Shown: one piece after another, positions 43,399 through 56,003 of the stretch
Position numbering within the stretch: the first letter of the stretch is position 1
Layout of the letters: each line of letters starts with the position of its first letter
DNA from: a virus
Reading direction: 5' to 3' (one strand)
DNA length: 64,000 bases
IMG/VR virus record: IMGVR_UViG_3300027754_000034
Location: 186,001-250,000 of that record
Translations under genes and position numbers: made by a program
The notes under the pieces: generated by a model
Told to the model about the DNA's origin: nothing
What the model saw: the letters and a program-made list of their open reading frames with translations, nothing else
The model's database searches: none

Positions 43399-44286
43399 AT
43401 GGCATACGGAGTACAGGTGGTTGATAACGCCATCAAAGAGCAGATTGTTGACAAGTTCATTGGAACGAGCGCTGGTCGTCGCCACTTAGCGGCTTCTATG
43501 ATTCAGCCTCTTCGCGAGCGTCGCGATTATTCGTCCGTTGGCCGCAAGACGTTCCTCGTCGAGCAGCTACCGGACGGAGCGCTTCCCATCTACGACAAGG
43601 ACCCCGACGTCGTTGCTTACGTCATCGGGGAAGAAGGCGAGTCGATCACGGCGGTTTCTAAGCCCCGCCGTGTTATCTTCCCGCTCTTCGAGATCGCGGC
43701 CCTCCCCAAGGCTCCTCTTACGCAGATCAAGGAGCGTCGTTACGACCTCCTCAAGCGTATGCAGGACCTTGGTAAGGCTCAGATCCAGGCTGCTGAGGAC
43801 GATCGCGTGTTCAGCATCCTCGATGCTATCGCGGTTAATGGCTTCGACAGCCTTCCTGGTGGTACGAACCCGGATATTCCGGTCGTTGCTCCCATCTCGC
43901 CTGCCATCCTTGCGGATGCGTTTGCCGAGATCGAGCGCCACGACCTGCGTGTTGCTCGCGTTTATATGAACGCGACCGATTACGCAGACGTTCGTAAGTT
44001 CGGACGCGACGTTCTCGATATCGAGAGCCAAGCGACGCTCTGGAAGACCGGTATGATGGCAACGGGCTGGAACGCCCAGTTCATCGTCTCGCGTCTCGTT
44101 CCCGCAGGCGTTGTTTACGTCTGCTGCGAGCCCGAGATGTTTGGTCGCATCCCGGTTCGTACTGAGCTGACCGTATTGAGCGCGGATAATCCCGAAGAGC
44201 GCACAATCGGGTTCAGCATGTTTGAGAATCTTGGTATTGGCGCATACAATCCACGCGGATTAGTGCGCCTCATCGTCCAACGCTGA
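43399..44286 (+). CDS. Major capsid protein
   Basis: A 295-residue protein consistent with an HK97-fold capsid subunit. It has an N-terminal helical arm (DNAIKEQIVDKFIGTSAGRR), an E-loop-like DYSSVGRKTFLVEQLPDG, a spine helix with ERRYDLLKRMQDLGKAQIQA, a P-domain (RVARVYMNATDYADVRKFG), and a C-terminal NLGIGAYNPRGLVRLIVQR strand typical of large-phage capsids. Codon choice is the most GC-rich in the window. AAGGA precedes ATG and a strong terminator follows. The order protease, scaffold-like, decoration-like, capsid supports the call. Confidence 0.85.
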   Translation: MAYGVQVVDNAIKEQIVDKFIGTSAGRRHLAASMIQPLRERRDYSSVGRKTFLVEQLPDGALPIYDKDPDVVAYVIGEEGESITAVSKPRRVIFPLFEIAALPKAPLTQIKERRYDLLKRMQDLGKAQIQAAEDDRVFSILDAIAVNGFDSLPGGTNPDIPVVAPISPAILADAFAEIERHDLRVARVYMNATDYADVRKFGRDVLDIESQATLWKTGMMATGWNAQFIVSRLVPAGVVYVCCEPEMFGRIPVRTELTVLSADNPEERTIGFSMFENLGIGAYNPRGLVRLIVQR

Positions 44287-44390: not shown

Positions 44391-45893
44391 ATGATGTGCA
44401 GAATATGCAATGCTGTTAGCCAGCACGATCTTTGCAATGTATGTCGTCAGGATACTAACTACTTAGTAAAATACCCAGTATTAAAGAATATCCTTACAGA
44501 TTCAGCCTTAGAGGTCTTGGATTTTAATCCCTCGCGCTCTGACTTTCAACGAGTAGACGTTATATGTGGTGAATGCAAGAGTACTAATAATATAGATTTA
44601 GTTAGCATCCTTAAATATATAAGACGTCATCTAAAAAAGAATCCCTATAACATATATAAGTGTCATTCATGTTCTAAAAGAGGGGAATCTCTCATTAGTC
44701 TCAAAGAGGTGATGCCGATCATAGATATGAAACTCACACAGGAAAAACATGGTGGAATAGGTAAAAATGTAAAAAAGTCCCTTGTTGTGGTCAAATGCGA
44801 GGATTGTTATGAACTATCAGACATTAAGTTAAGTAGTTTACTGCATGGGGCTAGAAGGCATCAGAAGCTAGGTCGAAAGTGTATTTACAAGTGTTTTAAG
44901 TGTGGTGTTCTATTGCCGGATGCCATAAAGAAGTCCAATGATGCCAGAGCTAAGCAGTTAGCTGTAGGAGCCCGTTCTCATATCGAAGTCGCTTTAGCCA
45001 ATAGATTAAAGGCTTTGAATATAGAATATGAGGAGTAGTTTCGTACCGATATGTATGTTTGGGACTTTTACCTCCCTAAGTATTTATTATTAATAGATGT
45101 AAATGGAGAATACTGGTATGGACTATCTCGGAATAAATCAAAAGATAAGTCTAAACTGACTTATGTAGAAAATTATCTACCTGAATATAAAACCCTAATC
45201 ATAGAGGAAAAGCGTTTTCTAAACCCCTTGATGGTAGATAAAATAATTAAGGACGCCATAGGAGAATCTAAGAAGATTACGGTAGAAGAGTTTAGCTTAT
45301 TGGATGTGATCATTAATCAGTCCTCAAAGGTATCTAAGTCCAAAAGGTCTACGGAATCTGATTTTTTAAACTCTTATCATTACTCAGGATTTGGTCGGAA
45401 CGGGAAATTAGTAATTACGGCACATCTTAATGAATCATTGGTGGCACTTTGTAAATTTAGTGGTACGACTCGACAAGGCACTGCTAAGTCTTTGGGTTAT
45501 AAATGTTATGAAGTCCTGGAACTTGACAGATTCTGCATACATCCTTCTTATCATAAAAAGAACTTCGCTTCTTGGTTTTTGTCACGATGTATGAAATTAG
45601 TATTTGAATCGAATAAACTTATGCAATGTTTGGTATCATTCGCAGATCCCACATATGGTCATACCGGCACTATTTATAAAGCCACAAATTGGGAAATGAA
45701 AGGCAAAACCAATCCAAGTTACCATTATATGGATCACTTAGGGGTTCCAGTCAATAAGAAGAGGATTTATGACTTTGCACAAAAACTTCGGATGAAGGAA
45801 GCTGAATATGTTGAACTTCATGGACTACAGAAGTTCTCTGAATTACCCAAGATTAAATATGTTTACAAGCGTTTTTCATCCGGGTCTAGATAG
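44391..45893 (+). pseudogene. VSR-like homing endonuclease gene split by an in-frame amber codon
   Basis: Two same-frame segments (44,391-45,038, 215 residues; 45,051-45,893, 280 residues) are separated only by TAG at 45,036 and four codons. The first half has several CxxC pairs (CRICNAVSQHDLCNVC; ICGECKS; KCHSCSK; KCEDCYE; KCFKCG). The second begins the VSR-like core (MYVWDFYLPKYLLLIDVNGE) and ends with the acetyltransferase-like module (HYSGFGRNGKLVITAHLN, LDRFCIHPSYHKKNFASWFL). Aligned with the intact relative at 56,423, the TAG falls on a Gln codon (YKEQY versus YEE*F), a single C-to-T change. The core Asp/Glu lie after the stop. ATG 45,051 could restart a nuclease without the DNA-binding half. 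Confidence 0.85.
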
Positions 45894-47119: not shown

Positions 47120-47380
47120 ATGAAAATGCTTAACGTTGTTTCAGTTTTGATTCTAGCTCTCGTGTCTTGTGGTAAGGACGAAAGTAAGCCTGTTGATGCC
47201 GCTTCTTCGGCTTCCGTGGGCTCTGGTGGCTCCGGTGGTGCCAAAATGGTTAGTGGTTCAGGAGGCGCAGACGGAGACGGAGGAACGGGCGGAGCGGTTG
47301 CATCCTCGGTTTCCGGTTCTGGTGGAGCCGGTATGGGTGGTTCTGGTGGAGCCGGAATGGGTGGTTCTGGCGGCAAGTGA
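47120..47380 (+). CDS. Small Gly-rich lipoprotein
   Basis: An 86-residue secreted lipoprotein: a positively charged start (MKMLNVVSVLILALVSCGK) with a lipobox LVSC, so Cys17 would be lipidated and the signal removed. The mature part is nearly all Gly, Ser and Ala, with GGSGGAGMGGSGG-type repeats, unstructured and uncharged. A GGAG ribosome site and flanking terminators make it a monocistronic unit. A phage lipoprotein in the host envelope could mediate superinfection exclusion or receptor masking; that is inference from type and setting. Confidence 0.85.
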   Translation: MKMLNVVSVLILALVSCGKDESKPVDAASSASVGSGGSGGAKMVSGSGGADGDGGTGGAVASSVSGSGGAGMGGSGGAGMGGSGGK

Positions 47381-47401: not shown

Positions 47402-47445
47402 AGGGGAAACGACCGATATCAGTCGTTTCCCCTCATTAGTTTTTT
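47402..47445 (+). terminator. Rho-independent terminator after the lipoprotein gene
   Basis: AGGGGAAACGAC pairs with GTCGTTTCCCCT around an eight-base loop, followed after CATTAG by six Ts. Strong, and with the terminator at 47,054 it isolates the lipoprotein gene. Confidence 0.88.
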
Positions 47446-47535
47446 CATATTGATTTGGTTTGTGGACCAGAAGATTTTTTCTTCTTCCATTTCTTACATT
47501 GTGCTACTTCTAAATAATCGGAAAGATTGACAGTT

Positions 47536-48072
47536 ATGGATCATTTCTATCAAAGTGTTTCTGGTTGGTTTGAATCTTTGGATTTATTTAGTTTCGTTGT
47601 AAATAAATATGATCAAGCTCACTTCGTTGAAGTAGGTTCTTGGAAGGGTCGCAGCTCCTGCTGTATGGCAGTAGAAATCATAAATTCGAAGAAATCTATC
47701 AAATTTGACTGTGTAGACTTATGGGAATACTCTGATTCCCAAAATGATATTTCTTCTAATGAATTTGAAGGAGTATACGGGGAGTTTATTTCCAACATAT
47801 CTAAAGTTGCCCATTATATAAATCCTGTAAAATCTACTTCAGTAGAAGCATCTAAACTATATTTAGATGCTTCTTTAGATTTCGTCTTTATAGATGCAGC
47901 ACATGATTATGAGAATGTGAAAAAAGATATAGAAGCTTGGTTACCTAAGATGAAGTCCGGTGGTATTATCTCTGGTCATGACTATTTCTTTTCTCAAGGG
48001 GTGAGACGTGCTGTACATGAAATACTCGGTGAAGTGCATACTACTTCAGAATCTTGGTATAAAGAAGTTTAA
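47536..48072 (+). CDS. Class I SAM-dependent methyltransferase
   Basis: A 178-residue protein from ATG 47,536 (TTG 47,527 is in frame). It has the AdoMet-binding GxG-type motif (HFVEVGSWKGRSSCCMA), a second-strand acid (KFDCVDLWEYS), motif IV (LDFVFIDAAHDYENVKKDI) and motif VI-like (MKSGGIISGHDYF), the pattern of methyltransferases that act on small molecules or sugars. No DNA-methylase NPPY/DPPY motif. It lies between two lipoprotein genes, so a role in envelope or glycan modification is possible; the substrate is unknown. Confidence 0.85.
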   Translation: MDHFYQSVSGWFESLDLFSFVVNKYDQAHFVEVGSWKGRSSCCMAVEIINSKKSIKFDCVDLWEYSDSQNDISSNEFEGVYGEFISNISKVAHYINPVKSTSVEASKLYLDASLDFVFIDAAHDYENVKKDIEAWLPKMKSGGIISGHDYFFSQGVRRAVHEILGEVHTTSESWYKEV

Positions 48073-48102
48073 TAAACTCATTATGATCCATGGAGTCGAA
48101 TC

Positions 48103-49086
48103 ATGAATAAATCATACCTAATGGGGATTGTAACTTGGATATCGGCTGTTTGCTTGGCTGGCTGCCCGTCAGATTTGACTCAAAAGAAAAATGAGCAGGT
48201 TTCCAGATTAAGAATAGTTAATGGTTGCAGTGACCCGATGTGGATTTTCTGGTATAATTCTGAGGGTGGTGGGGACTCGGGTACCCCCAAAAAATTCATA
48301 CTTGATGCTGGCAAACCCTATCTGGATGTGCAAATCCCAGACGCTGGATTTGCTGGTTCACGTTTTTGGCCGGGATATAACTGCGATCCTGAAGGAAACG
48401 GTTGTCAGATAGGACAGAGTGGTGGTCCCGCTAAGTACGGGTTCACTTGTCCTCCTGAGGGTTGTGCTCCACCAGTTGATAGTAAATTCGAGGGTACATT
48501 CGGTTGTTTATCAACTGTCGACCCTTCTTTATGTCAAATAAACCCTTCTGGGGCTCCCGGTCAGCGTTTACCTACCGCTGATTCTTGGGACACTAGTATG
48601 GTGGATGGATATACTCTTCCATATAAAGTTAGGGTGCTAGACGATTGCATTGGTGGTCCTAATAACAACGCGATTGACTGTTCTAATCTTTCGATGTCTT
48701 CTTGTCCCGATAATGAGGATCTTTCTTCTGGCGGTATTCATCCAGAATATTCTAGTATGGAACTAAACGTTAGTAACCCATCGACTGGAAAGAAAGCTGG
48801 ATGTTTTTCTGATTGTGGAAGACTTACTTATAACAATTGGAAGTATGAACCGGGGTTAAATCCGTCAGATTTACCGGCTGTTGATTATTGTTGTCCTGTA
48901 TCGGAGATTAGTCCAGAATCTTGCCGAAAGGGGCCAGTAGCTAACACGAGTTATGTCGATCTTATACATCAACAATGTCCTCAAGTATATGCATACTCCT
49001 ATGATGAAACAAATCCGAGCGGAGCATTGTGGTCCTGCCCAGCCGGGACCAGATATGAAGTGACGTTTTACTGCCCCAATTTTTGA
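48103..49086 (+). CDS. Thaumatin-like secreted lipoprotein
   Basis: A 327-residue protein. The signal peptide ends in a lipobox LAGC (Cys21). The mature part reads as a thaumatin-family protein: VNGCSDPMWIFW at the start, FAGSRFWPGYNC, KFEGTFGC, TSMVDGYTLPYKVRV (the family's SxVDGxNxP motif), GCFSDCGRL, YCCPVSE, SCRKGP, and QCPQVYAYSYDE, then GTRYEVTFYCPN (the classic ending). About 20 cysteines support the disulphide-rich fold. Thaumatin-like proteins bind or hydrolyse beta-glucans in plants and fungi and occur in some bacteria. In a phage it would be an outer-membrane lipoprotein made during infection. Confidence 0.85.
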   Translation: MNKSYLMGIVTWISAVCLAGCPSDLTQKKNEQVSRLRIVNGCSDPMWIFWYNSEGGGDSGTPKKFILDAGKPYLDVQIPDAGFAGSRFWPGYNCDPEGNGCQIGQSGGPAKYGFTCPPEGCAPPVDSKFEGTFGCLSTVDPSLCQINPSGAPGQRLPTADSWDTSMVDGYTLPYKVRVLDDCIGGPNNNAIDCSNLSMSSCPDNEDLSSGGIHPEYSSMELNVSNPSTGKKAGCFSDCGRLTYNNWKYEPGLNPSDLPAVDYCCPVSEISPESCRKGPVANTSYVDLIHQQCPQVYAYSYDETNPSGALWSCPAGTRYEVTFYCPNF

Positions 49087-50280: not shown

Positions 50281-50982
50281 ATGCAAATTAATGATGACCT
50301 ACGTATTTCGAGTAATGGTGTAAAATTTATAACTAAGTGGGAGGGATTAAAACTTTCTAAATATTTATGTCCCGCTGGTAAATGGACTATTGGTGTGGGT
50401 CATGTTATACTTCCACATGAGAACATATCGGATACTATTACAAAGGAGCGGGCTGAATCAATTCTGCGTTCCGATTTAGTGAGATTTGAAAAAGCAATCA
50501 AGAAGTTTATAACTGTACGTCTAAATCAAAATCAATTTGATGCCCTGGTAAGTTTCATATTTAACACTGGTGAGGGTGGTATTAGAAATACTTCTGTACA
50601 ATCGACGGTAAATGAGCAGAAGTTTTCAGAAGTACCTGAAAAACTCCAGATGTGGAGTAAAATGAGACAAAATGGAAAGTTGGTGGTTAGTCAGGGACTT
50701 TTAAGACGAAGAATGAGTGAGTCAGAATTATTCATGCTTTCTGTTCCTGAACCACCTTCAATGATTTTTCATTTATGGACTAAAGAATCATTGAAGGTGG
50801 TTCAGGCGGTTCTCACCGAATTGAATTTCTATGATAAATCCATAGATGGAATATACGGTCCTGGTACTGCCATGGGTCTTAAGAAATACTGTATGTCAAT
50901 TAATTTTTTGGATGGTCAATATGATGACAATGGGATTGCTAAATCTTTATATGATTCGATCGTGATCAAGAATCTAGGTTAA
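50281..50982 (+). CDS. GH24 phage lysozyme (endolysin) with peptidoglycan-binding-like tail
   Basis: A 233-residue endolysin. The catalytic triad spacing of GH24 is intact: Glu21 (KWEGLKLSKY), Cys30 in the Asp/Cys position, Thr36 (KWTIGVGH). NQNQFDALVSFIFNTG and LLRRRMSESELF are family hallmarks. The C-terminal ~70 residues (SLKVVQAVLTELNFYDKSID, then GIYGPGTAMGLKKY) match a peptidoglycan-binding PGBD1-like domain. No signal peptide or SAR segment, so a holin is required to reach the wall. Confidence 0.92.
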   Translation: MQINDDLRISSNGVKFITKWEGLKLSKYLCPAGKWTIGVGHVILPHENISDTITKERAESILRSDLVRFEKAIKKFITVRLNQNQFDALVSFIFNTGEGGIRNTSVQSTVNEQKFSEVPEKLQMWSKMRQNGKLVVSQGLLRRRMSESELFMLSVPEPPSMIFHLWTKESLKVVQAVLTELNFYDKSIDGIYGPGTAMGLKKYCMSINFLDGQYDDNGIAKSLYDSIVIKNLG

Positions 50983-52491: not shown

Positions 52492-53049
52492 TCATGAGAA
52501 TCTACTTGACACCATTCCCCAATCTATATATGGTTTTAAGGCAGTTAAATAACCATTCTTGTCGGTTCCCCAATCCATCCAGTATGCATGTTCCCAAACA
52601 TCAATGACACACAAAGGATTATATCCAAATGCTGCTCCTTCATCATGAGAATTCATGGCGAAAATGCGGAGATTTTTCGAGCCTGGATCTTGTGCTAAAA
52701 CGGCCCATCCCCGACAAGATAGACCCGTCGATTTCATTTGTTCATACAAATTATCCAGAGACCCCCAATGTTCTAGTACATGTTCTACAAACGCACTTTC
52801 GGGCGGTTTTGGTTCCAGAGACAGATTGCTAAAATAAAGAGAATGGAGGTCTGCTCCTCCTACAGCATATCCATGATTACGCAATGACTTGGCTATGTTC
52901 CCGTCTAGGGCATTTTTATTTAGTGAATGTATTGATTTTAGCTCTAAATCTGCTTTCTCAAGCATCTTAATGTAACCATCAAATAACTTTAAATGTTCGC
53001 TTAAAGCTCTCGAAGATGTGGCTCCCGGAAGTTCCGAATATCCTATCAT
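52492..53049 (-). CDS. Fe/Mn superoxide dismutase
   Basis: A 185-residue protein with the Fe/Mn-SOD layout and all four metal ligands: His19 (SEHLKLFDGYIKM), His69 (ADLHSLYFSNL), Asp150 and His154 (VIDVWEHAYWMDWG). The second-domain pattern (CRGWAVLAQDPGSKNLRIFA, then INWxxVxxRF-like YIDWGMVSSRF) is also present. It converts superoxide to peroxide and oxygen. No signal peptide, so it is cytoplasmic. Encoded with a membrane protein and a peptidoglycan glycosyltransferase, it looks like host-derived metabolic cargo that could protect the infected cell or a B12/iron enzyme during replication. Confidence 0.85.
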   Translation of the reverse strand: MIGYSELPGATSSRALSEHLKLFDGYIKMLEKADLELKSIHSLNKNALDGNIAKSLRNHGYAVGGADLHSLYFSNLSLEPKPPESAFVEHVLEHWGSLDNLYEQMKSTGLSCRGWAVLAQDPGSKNLRIFAMNSHDEGAAFGYNPLCVIDVWEHAYWMDWGTDKNGYLTALKPYIDWGMVSSRFS

Positions 53050-53072: not shown

Positions 53073-54989
53073 TCATTCTTGTAGTTCTGGATTTGGTACT
53101 TCAGGTTCATCGATTAAATCGGGTTCTGATTGGCCTATTACTACCCATTCATTCAACCCGTTTTTTTCTTCTTCCTCTGTGATGAATTTTAACTTTTTCA
53201 GATTATTCATTACTAAATGGATGAACTTCATTTTAGAATCGGTGACTCTTCCGATTTTATCCCATGATACTGATTTAGGATTTGGAAGCAAAGAAGCCAG
53301 AAGTATGCATTGCGTGAGAGATAAACTGGCCGGGTTCGTATTGAAATATTTCTTGGCTGCGTTCCCGATTCCATATTCACCGGGAGAAAACTCTACTATG
53401 TTTAGATATGTTTCCATAATTTCGTTCTTGGATAATATCTGTTCCAAATGAACAGTAAAAAATGCCTCTTGAATTTTACGTGCCATGGTTTTCTTTCTAT
53501 TCAGCCACAAGTTTTTCGCAGTCTGCATTGAAATCGTGCTACCTCCTCTAATGAATTTATGGGCTTTGATATTTTCAACCATTGAATTCTCGATTGCATT
53601 AATCAGTATGCCTTTATGCTTCATGAATGCTGAATCCTCGGTTCCCATAACAGAAATCGGCATATATTGTGAAATGTTAGAAAGACTAACCCAGTTTGGT
53701 GTTTGTGGACCTGTGACTTCTTCTATTTCTTCTCCTTTACTGTTTATTACTATTCGAGAATACTTGGACATTAGTACATTTCGTGAGTATTTTTTGGGAG
53801 AGCTCACCGAATGGCAGTTATGATTTAGTTTTATACTAACTTGGGGATTTTTGGTTAGTAACGATGTACTGCCAGATATTTGTCCAGCGAATATGAATTC
53901 ATCTAAATTGTCCTTCATGCTGTCTGGCAAGGCTTCTATCAGTGCTTGACATTCGGTTGTATCAAGCACTGTTTTGATTTCAAGGTCTTCACCATTCTTC
54001 TTTAGAATTCCGGAAATGTGGACTTCCCCAATCTTTAGATCGTAATCAAAAGTATCATCTATTTTAGATAGAAATATTTCAACACCGCGTATTTTTATAT
54101 TTGACTTACTTAACTTCTCATTAGACCCATAGATGTAGCTAGATTTAAGAAACATCTTATTGTTCTTTATTTCTATGTTAACGCCTTCCATGTTCGTAAT
54201 TTCTTCTTGATGCTGACTGATTTGAATTGATTCGCAATTCATTGTATGCGACTTATAGTCGCCACTGATGGCATTTATGGAATAACTGTTATATTTAGCT
54301 TTAATCGATTTAAAAGAAAAAGATGGTACTGATTCTAACTGGTTATATATTTTGAGAATGTAGGACTCCATATCTGCTTCCTTTTTATTTTTAGAGTCTC
54401 GGGGTTCGATCTTCCTATCATCCTGATGCTTCAGCTCAAATGATATGTTTCCTAGTGATATCCTTCCGTCTTCATATGCTCCTTTGTCTATTGTAAACGC
54501 ATTATCTCCCTTTACCAAAGACGCATTTGTAAATTTCACATATTTCTCTCCATTCATGTATGATGCCTCTGCAATATCTAACCTAACGTCATACCCGTGG
54601 GATTTAATGTTGGTTCTAATATTATTTAGGTGTAATTCATAAACGCTTCTATGGCTGTCGTATGAATTCTTATTATCCTGGATATGTGTATAGTTTACAT
54701 ACCCATCATTTGCTTTTATTATGTACTGTTCCGGATATACGTAATTAATGTTCAGTGACCGGAAGTTTATGTCTTGGTTTTCCTTAAATATGTGTACCTC
54801 ATGACAGTCAGCACCCATCCACCTCATGCTGCATTCTTGTACTTGAACTGAGTACCCTTTAGATTCTAACTTTTCTATAATTTTGTTTTTTACATATGTT
54901 GGTAAGTATGTAATCGTTGCTGAAAGAATCAAAAATACCATAAAGGAGATTTTGAATTTTAGGTTTTTTATAATTGGAAAAGCATTCAT
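53073..54989 (-). CDS. Peptidoglycan glycosyltransferase (GT51) with long AsmA-like N-terminus
   Basis: 638 residues from ATG 54,989; an in-frame upstream ATG (55,109) is rejected because it would run through the divergent gene. An N-terminal membrane anchor (ISFMVFLILSATITYLPTYV) is followed by ~370 residues of beta-rich, AsmA-like periplasmic sequence. The C-terminal ~220 residues are a GT51 domain: MGTEDSAFMKHKGI (catalytic Glu), RGGSTISMQTAKNLWL, RKIQEAFFTVHLEQ, KNEIMETYLNIVEFSPGEYG and AAKKYF. It polymerises lipid II into glycan strands. There is no transpeptidase domain, so no cross-linking activity is expected. Confidence 0.88.
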   Translation of the reverse strand: MNAFPIIKNLKFKISFMVFLILSATITYLPTYVKNKIIEKLESKGYSVQVQECSMRWMGADCHEVHIFKENQDINFRSLNINYVYPEQYIIKANDGYVNYTHIQDNKNSYDSHRSVYELHLNNIRTNIKSHGYDVRLDIAEASYMNGEKYVKFTNASLVKGDNAFTIDKGAYEDGRISLGNISFELKHQDDRKIEPRDSKNKKEADMESYILKIYNQLESVPSFSFKSIKAKYNSYSINAISGDYKSHTMNCESIQISQHQEEITNMEGVNIEIKNNKMFLKSSYIYGSNEKLSKSNIKIRGVEIFLSKIDDTFDYDLKIGEVHISGILKKNGEDLEIKTVLDTTECQALIEALPDSMKDNLDEFIFAGQISGSTSLLTKNPQVSIKLNHNCHSVSSPKKYSRNVLMSKYSRIVINSKGEEIEEVTGPQTPNWVSLSNISQYMPISVMGTEDSAFMKHKGILINAIENSMVENIKAHKFIRGGSTISMQTAKNLWLNRKKTMARKIQEAFFTVHLEQILSKNEIMETYLNIVEFSPGEYGIGNAAKKYFNTNPASLSLTQCILLASLLPNPKSVSWDKIGRVTDSKMKFIHLVMNNLKKLKFITEEEEKNGLNEWVVIGQSEPDLIDEPEVPNPELQE

Positions 54990-55016
54990 GTCGTAGTGTT
55001 TTCTGGAGGTTTTGAA

Positions 55017-56003
55017 ATGAGCACTATGTCTTGGAAACGGGGAAATTACATCAAATTCTTTGCTAAGATGAAAATCCGGGTGGGTGGCGGGACCCCGATA
55101 GATATTCAAAGTGGTGATGAATTTGATTATGATGGTTCGATTTTAAGGTACTCAGGTATGGATATCCCATCACCTCAATTAAGAGGGGCAGTAGAAAACG
55201 GTTGGGTAGTACCCGCCAGTTTAGAAGAATCTGGTGACAGGATAGATACCATACGACCCAATCGTAACATAGCAAAAGCCCAAACTGTAAACAAGGACTT
55301 GAGCCGCGTTCAGCGAGCGTCTGGTGCACAATTAACCACTACTACTTTAGACGAAGATGAGGTTCTCAAAGTAGAAGATAGAGGATCCTCCAATAAAAAG
55401 AATCCTAAAGTATTGGTAGGTACAGATAACCGTAAATCCAGGGGAATGGCCGTGTCTAGTGATACGACTGATGCTCAGGAAGCTGTATCAATTGGCAGGG
55501 TTCGCACTAGTGCCAAGGCTGTTTTTAATGACGTTTCGCGTCCTGACTCAATAAAAATAATGCAAGAATTGGAAAATATGAGCGGCGTTAAAGCCGACTT
55601 ATTTAAAGATTCGGTAATTCAAAGAGAAGGGATTACCATTACCACCAATTTAGGTAAAATGAACTCTGTTAGAGAAGCTGATGATGAATCTGGGACAGTG
55701 ATTGCTCAGGTCAGAAATTCTTCCAAGGGATCTTTTGAAGGCATTTCTGTTAAGGACACTAGTGGTATTAGGAATAAGAAGCCCGGCGCTCCTAAGATTT
55801 CTGACCCTCGCTTAAGGGTAGCTCGCGCCATTGATCCTAGCTTCCCCATGGATTGGGCTTTTACTGGTAAGCTCGCTGAACGTTTAGAAAACATTAAGCG
55901 TCATGGGGCTACCGCAGAATTTTTGGAAGCTCTGTATGCGGCAGAGGGTGATCAGATGAGAAAGACGTTGGTCAAGGAATTCCCTGATCAATTTGAAGGA
56001 TGA
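55017..56003 (+). CDS. Hypothetical virion-block protein
   Basis: 328 residues from ATG 55,017, with GGAGG eight bases upstream (in-frame GTG 54,996 rejected). The N-terminal ~70 residues form a compact beta domain (YIKFFAKMKIRVGGGTPIDI, then GDEFDYDGSILRYSG). The centre is flexible, and the C-terminus is helical (RLENIKRHGATAEFLEALYA). Similar small beta N-termini occur in large-phage structural proteins, but I cannot assign a role. Ends at a hairpin terminator. Confidence 0.72.
   Translation: MSTMSWKRGNYIKFFAKMKIRVGGGTPIDIQSGDEFDYDGSILRYSGMDIPSPQLRGAVENGWVVPASLEESGDRIDTIRPNRNIAKAQTVNKDLSRVQRASGAQLTTTTLDEDEVLKVEDRGSSNKKNPKVLVGTDNRKSRGMAVSSDTTDAQEAVSIGRVRTSAKAVFNDVSRPDSIKIMQELENMSGVKADLFKDSVIQREGITITTNLGKMNSVREADDESGTVIAQVRNSSKGSFEGISVKDTSGIRNKKPGAPKISDPRLRVARAIDPSFPMDWAFTGKLAERLENIKRHGATAEFLEALYAAEGDQMRKTLVKEFPDQFEG

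Follow-up and report, generated by a model that had tools for sequence, protein, structure and literature searches.

Proteins of the thaumatin fold are known mainly from plant and fungal defence. The plant and fungal PR-5 proteins (thaumatin, osmotin, Pru av 2, and the Puccinia protein 7p23) are secreted without a lipid anchor and have a mass of about 20 to 26 kDa. A viral example outside the phages is B5LW99 of the Feldmannia species virus, a virus of brown algae, which is annotated as a putative thaumatin/PR5-like protein. Some plant thaumatin-like proteins permeabilise membranes, and some inhibit xylanase, amylase, or trypsin (PMC3048497). Among phage lipoproteins, the closest described system is that of the lytic phage T5, which uses the disulphide-bonded lipoprotein Llp for superinfection exclusion (PMC9586334). 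Here we describe a 64-kb stretch of DNA (the window) from the 257,205-bp IMG/VR virus record IMGVR_UViG_3300027754_000034 (G000), a huge tailed phage that carries, as accessory cargo, a protein with a thaumatin domain and a lipoprotein signal.

The gene occupies positions 48103 to 49086 on the plus strand and encodes 327 amino acids; its ATG start codon is preceded by a Shine-Dalgarno-like GGAG (48092 to 48095, +). A Pfam profile search, which the first-pass annotation had named as a check on its thaumatin assignment, returned one family only, Thaumatin PF00314 (E = 4e-15), at 56.5 bits or twice the curated cut-off of 27.4. The match extends over residues 40 to 322 (48220 to 49068, +) and profile positions 1 to 207 of 209. 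A sequence search of the PDB found plant and fungal thaumatin-like proteins, with Puccinia 7p23 at the top (E = 4e-8), while the protein was unmatched in NCBIfam and PHROGs. Scored with a profile built without it, the window protein reached 445 bits, whereas its reversed copy and 200 shuffled copies stayed at or below 5.5 bits; therefore, the thaumatin observation is correct and not a product of chance. The N terminus consists of a lipoprotein signal (residues 1 to 20 and the predicted lipid-accepting Cys21; 48103 to 48165, +) with the lipobox LAGC at residues 18 to 21 (48154 to 48165, +). When the whole window was screened with the lipobox pattern [LVI][ASTVI][GAS]C, only two open reading frames (ORFs) passed, that of the thaumatin protein and a near neighbour at 47120. 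The residue at +2 after the lipid-accepting cysteine is Pro and not Asp, the residue that causes inner-membrane retention of lipoproteins in E. coli. Thaumatin family and lipoprotein signal are both supported, and the first-pass annotation was also right about the five family motifs that it quoted, all present in the ORF, and about the cysteines (about 20 claimed, 20 counted).

These cysteines comprise C17, the lipobox C21, and 18 in the mature part. In an alignment with a thaumatin I reference sequence, 15 of the 16 canonical cysteines correspond, one is replaced, and three are extra; eukaryotic members of the family also differ by one or two cysteines (PMC3048497). Homology allows the 18 mature cysteines to be arranged in nine predicted disulphides (42-324, 94-101, 116-121, 135-144, 182-312, 193-292, 201-234, 238-263, and 264-274), seven of which follow the thaumatin disulphides, 116-121 and 135-144 being guesses. 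Both C42 and C324, equivalent to the C9-C204 pair, are absent in three phage homologues, as expected if the two bond. Four of the five REDDD acidic cleft residues are in register with the same reference (R87, D163, D168, and D301, as candidates only). A first AlphaFold model was poor (predicted local distance difference test score, pLDDT, of 41), although its PDB matches were already thaumatin-like. A second model, of the mature domain with nine sequences, was still of low confidence (pLDDT 53; predicted template modelling score, pTM, 0.59), and all 17 of its PDB matches at E ≤ 1e-3 were thaumatin-like, with a template modelling (TM) score of up to 0.66 for osmotin. Because Foldseek also uses sequence, the fold match is not fully independent of the sequence evidence. 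The phage protein belongs to the same Pfam family as the PR-5 proteins, has 15 of the 16 cysteines in common with them, and resembles them in most of the candidate acidic cleft and in the fold matches of the low-confidence model, but differs from them in extra loops and cysteines, with about 20% identity over the structural alignment. The structural match to B5LW99 is weak (E = 0.15).

Terminase, portal, head protease, capsid, and endolysin genes all lie within the window. The thaumatin gene is located 3.8 kb 3' of the major capsid gene (43399 to 44286, +; phrog_2522, E = 2.7e-46), whose product shares 77% identity with the capsid protein of a 485-kb uncultured phage and 38% with that of Bacillus phage G. 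A scan yielded 436 viral stretches with related capsids, 80 of which were kept for comparison. Among the capsid relatives, genes before and at the capsid gene are shared, and those after it mostly are not. The next conserved phage ORF (54996 to 56003, +) has homologues 3' of the capsid gene in 11 relatives, where the two are separated by 0.2 to 7.8 kb (the shortest distance being from a weak match), compared with 10.7 kb here. With shared genes up to the capsid gene and variable spacing after it, the 10.7-kb stretch is, on these comparisons, hypervariable cargo bounded by conserved phage genes. The claim that the thaumatin gene is phage cargo is thereby borne out. Since these conserved genes flank it and its GC content at third codon positions (GC3) is phage-typical (z = 0.2), contamination or misassembly was rejected. 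A second contig is 100% identical across 17 kb and may stem from the same sample.

Such cargo is not a one-off. In IMG/VR, the same subfamily occurs on contigs of 298 kb (G002), 199 kb (G003), and 19 kb, as well as on a 5.9-kb fragment whose copy is close to that of the 19-kb contig; a wider profile over IMG/VR added no members of the window subfamily. The collection scans used exact peptide patterns and may miss distant copies, and most of the viral records may be fragments. A profile search was needed to find the copy of a 619-kb phage (G415), which belongs to a different, canonical second subfamily that also has a lipobox and is 69% identical to a lipoprotein of a 147-kb contig. G003 and G415 are the 2 of 19 large capsid-related records that contain a thaumatin domain. 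G003 has a capsid of the same family as the window, and the 19-kb contig has portal, scaffold, and capsid genes. No capsid of the window's family was found in G002, and the phrog_2 terminase profile was unmatched in G002, G004, and G419; the phage status of G002 and G419 therefore rests on the IMG/VR call, backed for G002 by a few phage-like genes. An N-terminal signal-like stretch and a lipobox-like Cys are present in all six distinct phage-borne copies, the FPSC of L003 being atypical. The window subfamily is 50 to 60% identical across loci with a GC content from 0.39 to 0.70. Few among the numerous related phages carry a thaumatin gene, and the positions are unrelated, a pattern typical of accessory genes. 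The first-pass annotation was not aware of the family as phage cargo. None was found among 50,697 phage records of INPHARED or in PHROGs, and a search of open literature on thaumatin in phages or myxobacteria gave nothing relevant; the other large virus contigs described here do carry such genes.

The nearest cellular matches are lipoproteins of three species of the soil bacterium Nannocystis (Myxococcota; 56 to 57% identity), which lie among other lipoprotein genes. They have the subfamily, the lipoprotein signal, and cysteines in common with the phage protein but are chromosomal, and in them the lipid Cys is followed by a long Ser/Thr-rich linker. In a sample of 379 Myxococcota genomes, 14 had any PF00314 match, and the profile of this subfamily matched 5. 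A plasmid search returned one relative, from Comamonas (35%). In a tree of 13 rows, which does not give the direction of transfer, phage and Nannocystis proteins form one group with a support of 96/100, and outside virus contigs the subfamily turned up here in Nannocystis only. The plant and fungal framing of the first-pass annotation needs revising, and a plant or fungal origin was rejected because bacteria supply the closest relatives. A myxobacterium-like host is the probable source of the gene, whose codon composition would since have drifted to that of the phage. In two Myxococcota lipoproteins (L024 and L025, from genomes G382 and G340), ricin-type lectin repeats are fused to a thaumatin domain, an addition that points to sugar binding.

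Inference from the family suggests that the domain with its acidic cleft binds carbohydrate or protein (PMC3048497). Within the cargo interval, a second lipoprotein, a lysozyme, a peptidoglycan transglycosylase, and a superoxide dismutase are encoded near the thaumatin gene, and from this gene content a role of the thaumatin protein in the envelope is likely. Considering the signal, the binding known from the family, the envelope neighbours, and the T5 precedent, we place first, tentatively and at somewhat less than an even chance, a lipoprotein that shields the surface or excludes superinfection, or else stabilises the envelope. The protein would be exported during infection, lipidated, and, judging from its signal and the Pro at +2, directed to the outer membrane. 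Locked by its disulphides, the domain would there bind a host envelope polysaccharide through the acidic cleft, or a surface protein, and so change the surface of the infected cell. The most likely benefit would be that the infected cell is shielded from further phages, as with T5 Llp; alternatively, the envelope might be stabilised during a long infection. No integrase was matched in G000, which makes a role during infection more likely than lysogenic conversion.

The combination of lipobox and thaumatin domain, the signal-like starts of all six phage-borne copies, the envelope-rich interval, the accessory-like distribution, the Nannocystis lipoprotein kin, the lectin-bearing Myxococcota relatives, and the four candidate cleft residues in register all speak for surface shielding. 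T5 Llp and Cor are likewise lipoproteins encoded by a lytic phage, and Llp is disulphide-bonded (PMC9586334), but they are much smaller and have no thaumatin domain, so that the comparison concerns only how the proteins may work. Three observations weigh against shielding. The Llp/Cor-type genes sit beside a gene for a receptor-binding protein, whereas no tail-fibre or receptor-binding match was found among the neighbours scanned here (43.4 to 56 kb). The cleft glutamate, E130, lies one column off register, which, with the other four residues aligned, leaves glucan binding possible. Lastly, the lysozyme gene (50281 to 50982, +; PF00959, E = 1.4e-36) begins 1.2 kb downstream of the thaumatin gene, with an ORF with one predicted transmembrane segment between them, and fits a lysis role equally well.

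The protein could instead be a lysis accessory, a late lipid-anchored domain that weakens the outer membrane or polysaccharide coat and aids the lysozyme in releasing virions, comparable in function to an outer-membrane spanin. The membrane permeabilisation by some plant relatives noted above (PMC3048497) is in line with it, as is locus L014, where, just before the capsid gene, the thaumatin gene overlaps a lipoprotein-like ORF of 72 amino acids together with two very small ORFs, one of them hydrophobic. The protein itself does not resemble an outer-membrane spanin, having 327 residues with a folded domain, and no spanin-like inner-membrane partner was recognised in the window. A lysozyme of the window's family was not found in G002, G003, or G004, no lysis gene was recognised near the G003 copy, and the second-subfamily genes sit between tRNA arrays in both G415 and L138. 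In G002, a segment of about 2 kb holds the thaumatin gene and a DUF4160 gene, and the related phage contig L032 has the same neighbourhood without this segment. A lysis cassette as a general rule is not upheld in G003, G415, and L138, and we regard a lysis role as unlikely, although it is the strongest of the competing explanations. Directly upstream of the G002 thaumatin gene, L012:9070-9879 encodes an uncharacterised 269-amino-acid protein with a C-terminal hydrophobic stretch, whose resemblance to a wall hydrolase is by eye only and which matched nothing in the databases. A wall hydrolase assignment for P0005, beside the same gene, was dropped for want of database support.

The mostly retained candidate acidic cleft would also suit a secreted antifungal or anti-competitor activity (glucan binding or beta-1,3-glucanase) with which the infected bacterium would hold its own against rivals during phage multiplication. 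A membrane anchor poorly suits a diffusible antifungal, however, and such a gain has little time to take effect in a lytic infection, which makes a host benefit of this kind distinctly improbable. Less probable still is a passenger gene, host DNA that was captured recently and plays no part in infection. Its rare and patchy distribution would fit a passenger, but the gene is intact in six distinct virus contigs, its GC3 is already phage-like, and the subfamily is 50 to 60% identical across the wide range of locus GC. That the domain blocks a glycosidase or protease attacking the infected cell or virion has a precedent in the inhibitory family members (PMC3048497) but no pointer in the neighbourhood, and it is the least credible of the readings. 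A defence system was rejected, PADLOC being unmatched.

Other features of the interval complete the picture of the neighbourhood. A methyltransferase gene (47527 to 48072, +; Methyltransf_24, PF13578, E = 7e-20) ends 30 bp upstream of the thaumatin gene, and from this spacing the two are likely co-transcribed. The neighbouring lipoprotein (47120 to 47380, +) is small and Gly/Ser-rich, with the lipobox LVSC; between its gene and the methyltransferase/thaumatin unit lies a terminator-like hairpin (47402 to 47433, +), a consensus match only (4 found against 2.9 expected). On the minus strand are the C-terminal domain of an Fe/Mn superoxide dismutase (52492 to 53049; PF02777, E = 1.8e-20) and the peptidoglycan transglycosylase domain (53073 to 55109; PF00912, E = 8.8e-48), the ORF of which is 38% identical to a piece of the related contig L072. 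A zinc-finger/Mom-like gene (44391 to 45893, +) reads as two same-frame ORFs with one in-frame TAG between them. In L036 and L084 the gene is uninterrupted, and TAG also serves as the stop of other window ORFs. The capsid gene has a GC3 of 0.65 against a mean of 0.33 for the window ORFs (z = 4.7), far from the phage average. A similar short, helical-looking N-terminal motif (RSKLIRLAHxNPELRxxLLPLL or LRRIASKIDASKNPSRxLV) is found on many otherwise different phage proteins (window 37425 and 46041; L013:6870, 7294, and 10819; L039:9996; L084:14963) and may be a sorting or packaging tag.

With this protein, the thaumatin family can be counted as phage cargo, in the form of lipoproteins of two subfamilies, and the finding makes myxobacteria-like bacteria candidate hosts for some of these huge phages. 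It is conceivable, if rather doubtful, that huge phages of one capsid lineage repeatedly took the two subfamilies from myxobacterium-like hosts as surface shields, which would amount to a novel class of phage envelope effectors on a fold best known from plant defence. If the protein shields the cell, the role of bacterial thaumatin-like proteins would be tied to a testable phage phenotype.
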